A stretch of 29,031 nucleotides of DNA from a virus. Positions 6,761 to 15,516 of the stretch are shown here, piece by piece. The DNA is taken from the IMG/VR virus record IMGVR_UViG_3300020572_000002, positions 1 to 29,031 of that record; one strand, 5' to 3'. The position numbers and the translations under genes are program-made. Under the pieces are notes generated by a model. It was not told the origin of the DNA. It worked only from the letters and a program-made list of their open reading frames with translations, and searched no databases. The first letter of the stretch is position 1; every line of letters starts with the position of its first letter.

Positions 6761-6913
6761 ATGATAACAATTAATCAAGATCAAATCAAGGAATTAGAAG
6801 CGTTTATCAACACTATCCCAACTGCTTACGGGCTTCCGTTATTGCAATTTTTGGGTAAGTTAAATGCAGAACAAAATCCACCACAAGTACAAGAACTACA
6901 AACAGAAGACTAA
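6761..6913 (+). CDS. 50-residue hypothetical protein
   Basis: The ATG at 6761 opens a 50-residue frame (MITINQDQIKELEAFINTIP at its start, ending QTED). It is mostly helical by composition, with a short Pro-rich turn near the end (NPPQV). It is the first gene after a promoter-like element and overlaps the next gene by one base (TAATG), so it is most likely translated. I do not recognise the family. The position at the head of the lysis block gives no firm function. Confidence 0.65.
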   Translation: MITINQDQIKELEAFINTIPTAYGLPLLQFLGKLNAEQNPPQVQELQTED

Positions 6914-11391: not shown

Positions 11392-11407
11392 TTGTTGGTT
11401 CATAGTT

Positions 11408-11435
11408 CCCCATCCCTAAAAAGGTGGGGTTTTTT
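11408..11435 (+). terminator. Rho-independent terminator 1
   Basis: CCCCA at 11408-11412 pairs with TGGGG at 11425-11429, extended by CC/GG across a one-base bulge, with an A-rich loop and a following run of six T (11430-11435). It lies 17 bases after the last late gene. Confidence 0.85.
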
Positions 11436-11438
11436 ATA

Positions 11439-11446
11439 TATATTTG
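11439..11446 (+). promoter_or_regulatory. Possible -7 element (TATATTTG) between the two terminators
   Basis: The octamer fits TAnnTTTG and would start a transcript near 11452 that meets the second terminator at about 11500. No -33 box is visible. It may be chance in an AT-rich stretch. Confidence 0.25.
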
Positions 11447-11474
11447 CATTTCATATTGGAGAACTTAGGTTTAG

Positions 11475-11506
11475 CCACCCTTTTAGTCTTATTAGGGTGG
11501 TTTTTT
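11475..11506 (+). terminator. Rho-independent terminator 2
   Basis: CCACCCT at 11475-11481 pairs with AGGGTGG at 11494-11500 and is followed by six T (11501-11506). With terminator 1 it insulates the early module from late transcription. Confidence 0.88.
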
Positions 11507-11522
11507 ATATAATAAACTGGAC

Positions 11523-14329: not shown

Positions 14330-14524
14330 ATGAGAGCAGTAACTATTACACAAATTGACCCTAACGAATTAAAAGATATTATTGAAGATTCTATGTTTAG
14401 GGTTTTATGCAAACAAAAACATAATGATATTATTAAGTTAGAGATGAAAATTAAACAATTAGAAAAACTATTAAAAACCTACAACTATGAGCCAAACAAC
14501 ACAAATTGCAAACTACCTAAATAA
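14330..14524 (+). CDS. 64-residue hypothetical helical protein
   Basis: The start MRAVTITQIDPNELKDIIED and the KLEMKIKQLEKLLKTY coiled-coil stretch resemble the N-terminal parts of small Bacteroidota phage HTH proteins, but no HTH is present here. It starts in an ACCAATATG context and overlaps the next gene by 38 bases in another frame. The family is unknown. Confidence 0.65.
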   Translation: MRAVTITQIDPNELKDIIEDSMFRVLCKQKHNDIIKLEMKIKQLEKLLKTYNYEPNNTNCKLPK

Positions 14525-14681
14525 AGGTAAAAAATTAACCCCTATTGATGCACTTAACAAGTTCGGATGCTTTAGATTAGCAGCACGAATAGCTGATCTT
14601 AGGAATGATGGTATGAATATAAAAACTACCATTGTTAAGCTAAAAAATAAGAAACAAGTGGCACAGTATTCGGTTAATTGA
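14487..14681 (+). CDS. Helix-turn-helix protein
   Basis: This protein has 64 residues. The stretch YLNKGKKLTPIDALNKFGCF followed by RLAARIADLRNDGMNI is a compact HTH of the type that I recall as Pfam HTH_39: a helix ending in LT-x-x-DAL, a turn at FGCFRLA, and a recognition helix ARIADLRNDG. A short beta wing follows (IKTTIVKLKNKKQVAQYSV). It overlaps its upstream neighbour by 38 bases. It is probably a DNA-binding regulator or replication accessory. It precedes a new promoter and the structured leader at 14694. Confidence 0.75.
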   Translation: MSQTTQIANYLNKGKKLTPIDALNKFGCFRLAARIADLRNDGMNIKTTIVKLKNKKQVAQYSVN

Positions 14682-14682
14682 T

Positions 14683-14690
14683 TATATTTG
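14683..14690 (+). promoter_or_regulatory. -7 promoter element (TATATTTG) for the DUF4373 gene leader
   Basis: The octamer fits TAnnTTTG and begins right after the HTH gene stop. A transcript would begin near 14694-14698, exactly where the first leader hairpin starts. A TTG at 14678-14680 is too close for -33, so the element stands mainly on its -7 box and context. Confidence 0.5.
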
Positions 14691-14693
14691 CAA

Positions 14694-14771
14694 TAGAATG
14701 TACGAGATTCTAATCTAAAACTTTTTGCCCAAGGAGGCGTTGGTACTCGTACTACCAGCAAATCTGCGGGC
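14694..14771 (+). promoter_or_regulatory. Structured 5' leader with two complementary hairpin loops (candidate cis-regulatory RNA)
   Basis: Hairpin 1 pairs TAGAAT (14694-14699) with ATTCTA (14707-14712) around the 7-base loop GTACGAG. Hairpin 2 pairs GTTGGTA (14739-14745) with TACCAGC (14753-14759, one G-T wobble) around the 7-base loop CTCGTAC. The loops are perfect complements and the match stops at the loop edges, as in kissing loops. GCCC (14727-14730) and GGGC (14768-14771) can enclose hairpin 2 through an internal loop. It lies between a promoter box and a replication gene start (14782). Confidence 0.55.
14698..14718 (+). CDS. Possible 6-residue leader peptide (MYEILI)
   Basis: ATG at 14698 is followed by five codons and TAA inside hairpin 1 of the leader. 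Its translation would open that hairpin. There is no independent support for translation, so it is only a candidate. Confidence 0.2.
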   Translation: MYEILI

Positions 14772-14781
14772 TATTTTATTT

Positions 14782-15516
14782 ATGAAAAGTAACAGTTATT
14801 ATTTTAGCCACGATTACAATTCGGCTAATGATACCAAGATTCTGTTTTTAAGGCATCAACTTGGTATGGAGGGGTACGGGATTTATTGGTTTATGATTGA
14901 ACAATTAGCAAATGCAGGAGGTAGATTACCATTAGAGTTGATTCCTGTTTTAGCTATGCAGATGCAAACAACCGATGTAAAGGTTAATGGAGTAGTACAC
15001 AATTTTGATTTATTTACAATAGAGTCTGGAGAATTTTACTCGGAAAGATTACAAAATCATTTAGCTTTAAGGCAAAATCTAAGCGAAAAAGGCAAATTAG
15101 GTGCTGCAAATAGATGGAAAAATGGGGGGGCTATTGGGGATGCCATTGGGGATGGCAATGCAAAGGAAAGGAAAGAAAAGGAAAGTAAAGTAAAAGAAAG
15201 TAAAGTAAAGGTTAGTAGGCAAACGCTATTTAGTGAAACAGAATTTTTAGATATAGAAATATTTAAGGCAGCTTTTATTGGAAGTCAGTATGAAGAAGCT
15301 AATTTTACATACTATCACGAAGTAATTAAAAATTGGTCAGATTCAAATGGGGAAAAGAAGTTAAATTGGATTGCCACCGCAAAAAATTGGATGGCAAGAG
15401 ATTTAAAGGAAGGCAAATTTGTTCATATAAACTATAAACCAAATGCAACAGGAATTAGCAACAATAGTAAACTCTCTTACGCAGAGAGAGAAGCTATTGC
15501 ACTTAGAAATTTATAA
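14782..15516 (+). CDS. DUF4373/Lin1244-like replication protein
   Basis: This protein has 244 residues from ATG 14782, which gives the family start MKSNSYYFSHDYNSANDTKI; a TTG at 14725 would lie in the structured leader and add a tail not seen in the family. KILFLRHQLGMEGYGIYWFM is the typical winged-helix start of this DnaD- or replication-initiator-like group. A low-complexity linker (KERKEKESKVKESKVKVS, about 130-147) separates it from a C-terminal domain with FTYYHEVIKNWSDSNGEKKL and WMARDL. It probably helps load host replication proteins. The linker DNA holds a G-rich tract. It overlaps the next gene by 74 bases. Confidence 0.8.
   Translation: MKSNSYYFSHDYNSANDTKILFLRHQLGMEGYGIYWFMIEQLANAGGRLPLELIPVLAMQMQTTDVKVNGVVHNFDLFTIESGEFYSERLQNHLALRQNLSEKGKLGAANRWKNGGAIGDAIGDGNAKERKEKESKVKESKVKVSRQTLFSETEFLDIEIFKAAFIGSQYEEANFTYYHEVIKNWSDSNGEKKLNWIATAKNWMARDLKEGKFVHINYKPNATGISNNSKLSYAEREAIALRNL
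15124..15151 (+). other. Possible G-quadruplex tract inside the DUF4373-like gene
   Basis: A seven-G run (15124-15130) and two four-G runs (15136-15139, 15148-15151) can supply four GGG tracts with loops of 1, 5 and 8 bases. The surrounding sequence repeats a 12-base unit, GCTATTGGGGAT and GCCATTGGGGAT. This is striking in so AT-rich a genome. Confidence 0.4.

Follow-up and report, generated by a model that had tools for sequence, protein, structure and literature searches.

What lies between the promoter and the start codon of a phage replication gene, and does it work as RNA? We address this question for a leader in the window, that is, the whole stretch of 29,031 nucleotides analysed (uncultured virus record IMGVR_UViG_3300020572_000002, positions 1 to 29,031), in which RecT and NinG genes were identified and for which sequence and gene order suggest putative terminase, portal and capsid-type ORFs. 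The original prediction had described two hairpins with complementary 7-nt loops upstream of a DUF4373-like gene; on re-reading, it had placed the promoter box, the loops, GCCC/GGGC, the internal loop and the ATG correctly.

Anatomy of the leader

All elements are on the plus strand, in the order promoter TAnnTTTG, P1, linker of 13-16 nt, P2, U-run, ATG. The -7 box for the Bacteroidota sigma-A, TATATTTG (TAnnTTTG; 14683-14690), is followed by hairpin P1 (TAGAAT/ATTCTA; 14694-14712), which carries kissing loop 1, GTACGAG (14700-14706). A linker, AATCTAAAACTTTTT (14712-14726), whose family form ends in AACUUAUU, or (A)ACUUAUU in most members, leads to the larger hairpin P2. The base of P2, P2a, pairs GCCC (14727-14730) with GGGC (14768-14771), as indicated by sequence, fold and alignment. 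Above it, an internal loop of AAGGAGGC (14731-14738) against AAATCTGC (14760-14767), the latter assigned from sequence and alignment, contains the 2-bp helix P2b (GA, 14734-14735, with TC, 14763-14764). P2c (GTTGGTA, 14739-14745, with TACCAGC, 14753-14759, from fold and alignment) is closed by kissing loop 2, CTCGTAC (14746-14752), the perfect complement of loop 1. A U-rich tail, TATTTTATTT (14772-14781; TTTTTTATTT in most relatives), joins P2a to the ATG at 14782 of the replication initiator gene (14782-15516; Lin1244_N, PF14297, DUF4373, phrog_2562).

Copies of this element were collected with a 17-base pattern, which matched 109 stretches of viral contigs, and with further patterns that added sub-types. 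A detector demanding kissing loops and P2a recovered 192 copies with 58 distinct sequences and nine loop pairs; the 192 copies do not represent as many independent phages, since the fetched loci overlap and several are from the same contig. The linker measures 13-16 nt in all 58 distinct elements, and P2a lies 8-12 nt from the ATG in 192/192 copies, across unrelated downstream genes. Minimum free energy (MFE) folds contain P2c in 58/58 distinct elements, and P1 and P2a in 57/58 each.

The promoter is equally constant. Each of the 102 distinct promoter and element contexts has TAnnTT(T/C)G ahead of P1, at a spacing of 3-5 nt in 100 of them. In F. psychrophilum, TAnnTTTG occupies -12 to -5 (PMC9723704), so this spacing places the predicted transcription start on the first base of the 5-bp P1 (14695, +/-1), and hairpin 1 very probably forms the 5' end of the transcript, as had been proposed. 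A 64-aa winged-helix (HTH_39) gene (14487-14681) ends 1 nt upstream of the promoter box, and similar genes occupy the same place in most relatives inspected; its product could regulate the leader promoter.

RNAfold returned exactly the two hairpins for the window leader (-24.1 kcal/mol), with a single-sequence z-score of only -1.7, too modest for energy alone to prove a structure. RNAalifold, given no prior answer, returned the same nested structure and recovered P2b independently. The conserved parts are the linker, the U-run and a few flanking positions. Two further structural ideas were rejected: start-codon occlusion through ACUUUUU/GAAAAGU, seen in the window fold, is absent from relatives, and a kink-turn in P2 would require tandem G-A pairs that fit a single sub-type only. 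No alternative (anti-terminator) pairing was seen. In many members of the GTAGGAT/GTCGGAT type (for example, L078), an AUG lies within the P2 internal loop, on its 3' side (GATGCCGAGAGCC...); in some of them this AUG shares the reading frame of the gene (MPRAFFI extension).

Loop-loop complementarity and covariation

Since the detector itself selects for complementarity, the unbiased figures come from two other sets. Homologous leaders were gathered by protein similarity alone, which returned 56 viral loci, and 52 leaders were read (51 loci plus the window). Loop 1 is the exact reverse complement of loop 2 over 7 nt in 51 of these 52; at the sole exception, L037, an HNH endonuclease gene adjoins the initiator and the RNA sits before the HNH gene. 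With loops defined from hairpins only, 54 of 56 covariance-model hits have perfect loop pairs, and the other two, judged by eye, are perfect pairs read in the wrong register.

Pairing in the kissing helix is complete (100%) across 14 distinct leaders, four of its seven pairs vary on both sides, and the whole structure is 96% paired, compared with 30-47% when the partners are slid. P1 (four of its five pairs), P2a, P2b and P2c also covary; in P2b the G-C pair is kept and the second pair alternates between C-G and A-U. L052 and L046 have the stems and P2 in common and carry GTACGAG/CTCGTAC and GTTGCAG/CTGCAAC, respectively, and L040 and L011 share P2 with one compensated A-U/G-C difference in the loops. 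Both pairs of leaders are natural near-isogenic compensatory (double) mutants.

The loops thus vary among homologues yet stay complementary, and both stems and the loop-loop pairing covary, an outcome that strongly supports the kissing-loop reading originally proposed. Two complementary, covarying hairpin loops within one RNA are what defines an in-cis kissing-loop RNA, and we regard such a structure in this leader as nearly certain on comparative grounds. That it acts in cis as a structured leader RNA is strongly inferred and, in our judgement, very likely.

Genes behind the leader and extent of the family

The original assignment to a DUF4373-like gene holds for the window, where the leader precedes a Lin1244_N gene; the leader is not specific to that gene, as several kinds of phage gene follow it. 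Among 93 distinct element-gene combinations, 78 fall into one linked cluster of replication-initiator-like genes that spans several families (Lin1244_N, a DUF1376-like group below the cut-off, and others without a Pfam match). Seven are NUMOD4/HNH endonucleases with a GTGAGAT sub-type of their own, in several contigs inserted between late genes, and the remainder are genes or fragments of the HNH or DNA methyltransferase-like kind. In the replication region, HNH or methyltransferase genes that stand directly behind the RNA are themselves followed by the initiator. The RNA therefore goes with the 5' end of the operon and not with a particular protein, and this speaks against the encoded protein regulating its own synthesis.

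Six loci (L037, L205, L072, L080, L240 and L160) have an HNH or DNA methyltransferase gene between the leader RNA and the initiator, occupying the leader's start-codon position. NUMOD4/HNH insertions with their own promoter and GTGAGAT leader are found at the terL-portal junction (L191, L193, L253 and L058) and before NinG (L012 and L189). Because these inserted genes bring their own promoter and leader sub-type, leader and endonuclease seem to be one travelling module.

Four covariance-model matches with an extended P1 (L230:7419-7514; L231:563-666 and 6769-6873; L258:2883-2985) add three loop pairs. Their P2 is different, and by inspection they still have perfect 7-nt kissing loops (GCGGAAT, CTCTAAC, ATGCGAC, CTACTAC). 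Endonuclease genes of the NUMOD3/GIY-YIG type follow three of the four, and the L230 copy directly follows a gp32-like gene. In these contigs, TATTTATTA or a similar motif precedes or overlaps the extended P1 and stands before other start codons as well, which makes it a candidate late promoter; transcription starting within P1 would leave out its outer strand. A last pattern scan for more such relatives gave no match.

The original prediction knew of no named riboswitch with this layout, and no Rfam family fits: Rfam 15, at gathering and relaxed thresholds, gave no match in the window, and three member loci gave chance-level matches (E up to 5). A pattern scan of 84,980 species genomes (GTDB) found 22 stretches, none with the kissing structure and all therefore chance matches. 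A covariance-model search of 400 genomes from one family found none, a weak result in that 10 candidates per genome were scored. Against isolated phages, blastn with one element gave a single chance-like match of 35 nt, and a model search of two isolated Bacteroidota phages (Flavobacterium FCV-1, 29.9 kb, and an 18.3-kb Porphyromonas phage) found none. Within the limits of these searches, the family is known here from viral metagenome contigs only and is apparently undescribed: a new RNA family of a known kind, the structured leader. Because neither Rfam nor the isolated-phage records searched contain it, routine annotation would miss it.

A possible gate on the following gene

The sequence between P2 and the start codon is unusual for these phages. 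T makes up 87.5% of the 10 nt before the ATG, with at least 7 T in all 53 distinct leaders, compared with an average of 28.5% T for 552 other genes of the same contigs, 2.2% of which reach 7 T; upstream of those genes the sequence is A-rich, not U-rich. At the base of the helix, 51/58 distinct tails have at least five T's, mostly as TTTTTTAT, which is also the commonest tail among terminator-like hairpins in the fetched contigs (28/94) and among those of the window. The tail of the window copy itself is an imperfect U-run, weaker than that of most relatives. With a U-run immediately behind a GC-rich helix base, in those same 51 distinct elements, P2 resembles an intrinsic terminator. It lacks the uninterrupted stem of about 5-10 bp or longer and the short loop of a typical one, having an 8x8 internal loop, and a simple consensus terminator scan did not call it. 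It further differs from known terminators and attenuators in that the tail ends at the start codon and a second hairpin locks the loop.

Translation signals point the same way. In F. johnsoniae, initiation benefits from A at -3, -6, -12 and -13 and is inhibited by structure between -20 and +20 (PMC6847099). Of the 58 distinct elements, 45 carry T at -3 and 52 at -6, and the helix stops about 10 nt upstream of the AUG. Taken with the terminator-like tail, these features favour a repressive or gating leader. There is precedent in phage homing endonuclease genes, whose structured leaders reduce translation (PMC3014915), a comparison made relevant by the endonucleases among the genes found here.

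We therefore consider a repressive gate on the following gene, with attenuation as its inferred mechanism, to be the likeliest explanation, with about an even chance of being correct. Transcription would begin at the first base of P1, so that the RNA would occupy nearly the entire 5' UTR; the two fully complementary 7-nt loops form a closed kissing complex, and this contact would stabilise the closed state and lock P2. The GC-rich base of P2, abutting a U-run that reaches the start codon, has the layout of an intrinsic terminator, and the locked helix would stand some 10 nt before the AUG, in a region that Bacteroidota ribosomes prefer to be unstructured and A-rich. By partial termination of transcription, poor initiation or both, the gate would keep the gene low or delayed. 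The HNH copies between the large terminase and portal genes count against strong termination, as a strong terminator amid late genes would be polar; partial or conditional termination, or gating of translation alone, may apply instead within the gate reading. More tentatively, and with somewhat less confidence than in the gate itself, we suggest that this undescribed in-cis kissing-loop family is a portable expression gate in phages of Bacteroidota that initiate independently of Shine-Dalgarno (SD) pairing, in which the loops may diverge freely as lock and key and the kissing state would directly set termination or ribosome access with no small-molecule ligand.

The same anatomy could instead activate, through mRNA stabilisation or ribosome recruitment. 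A 5'-terminal hairpin without overhang, together with the kissing complex, might shield the mRNA from 5'-end-dependent decay, or present the AUG and U-run to the ribosome in an IRES-like or S1-dependent manner. In favour of this, 100/102 contexts place the predicted start on the first base of P1, and the element is constant across unrelated genes, as expected of a general booster; SD-independent Bacteroidota ribosomes also leave room for other modes of recruitment. However, the known positive determinants are reversed here, with T rather than A at both -3 and -6 and with a helix near -10, and the terminator-type tail is left unexplained; we hold an expression-promoting leader to be unlikely, though worth keeping in view. 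Somewhat less probable still is a regulated switch, in which a metabolite, a phage or host protein or a trans-acting RNA binds the kissing complex, the linker or the internal loop and so opens or closes P2. Purine and guanidine-II riboswitches have kissing loops within an mRNA leader, and a conserved single-stranded linker (ACUUAUU) adds to the architectural likeness with such ligand-controlled RNAs. Our family differs from them in architecture and in having no Rfam match, and its P2 internal loop varies greatly between members and sub-types, with no riboswitch-type invariant pocket found across them; this weakens the earlier idea of a ligand-binding internal loop, and a riboswitch proper was dropped for lack of a conserved pocket. 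Nor do the downstream genes have a common metabolic theme, and an antisense TAnnTTTG, the only promoter type looked for, lies within 270 nt in only 10/137 copies.

Other readings dispense with the following gene or with the RNA altogether. The put RNA of HK022 works as an antiterminator in cis, touching RNA polymerase directly, and the leader might likewise act on the polymerase of its operon, or in trans as a short non-coding RNA, with the next gene incidental. A complete promoter, RNA and terminator-like unit does head replication operons, including ones with inserted HNH or methyltransferase genes, but the constant spacing of P2a and ATG would then be needless and copies within one contig have different loops, so we find this account rather improbable. 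The proposal that we rate lowest, as highly improbable, is a DNA element (operator, replication origin or recombination site) whose inverted repeats merely look like RNA. The adjoining initiator gene and the two 7-nt inverted repeats would suit it, and an operator had been offered originally as the alternative. Against it, G-U pairs occupy 31/290 inner P2c cells, a tolerance that implies selection on RNA; the nested stems show compensatory changes; the polarity from promoter through P1, P2 and U-run to ATG is strict; and copies also precede endonuclease and methyltransferase genes at sites apart from the initiator, which weakens a replication origin in particular.

Among known systems, the ColE1 RNA I/RNA II kissing complex has the same full complementarity of two 7-nt loops, formed in trans between an antisense and a primer RNA, whereas here both loops are in one leader. 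In the repZ leader of ColIb-P9, a loop pairs with a distant stretch and activates translation, and an antisense RNA competes. This IncI-alpha pseudoknot (cited by title in PMC10724649) likewise joins distant parts of the RNA in a leader that belongs to a replication initiator gene; ours is loop-loop, lies immediately before the gene and has no consistent antisense promoter of the TAnnTTTG type. The T4-type leaders of homing endonucleases (I-TevI, mobE, segB) also head phage endonuclease genes and are shown or implicated in reducing translation (PMC3014915). They bury the ribosome-binding site or AUG in a helix, in contrast to the two kissing hairpins here, which leave the AUG 8-12 nt beyond P2a, and the main clients of the present family are replication initiators.

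Control by RNA leaders is little known in Bacteroidota phages, whose hosts initiate translation without SD pairing, and a leader that is widespread and modular, whose 7-bp kissing contact is fully complementary and which stands before both initiators and mobile endonucleases, offers a clean experimental system. If it is a gate, it may explain the timing of replication in these phages and how free-standing endonuclease genes limit their own expression. The window has a further feature ahead of the early region, at 11405-11510, where another TATATTTG box (11439-11446) lies between two terminator-like hairpins with TTTTTTATAT tails (11408-11429 and 11475-11500); together these would form a promoter-terminator unit with an RNA of only about 60 nt.
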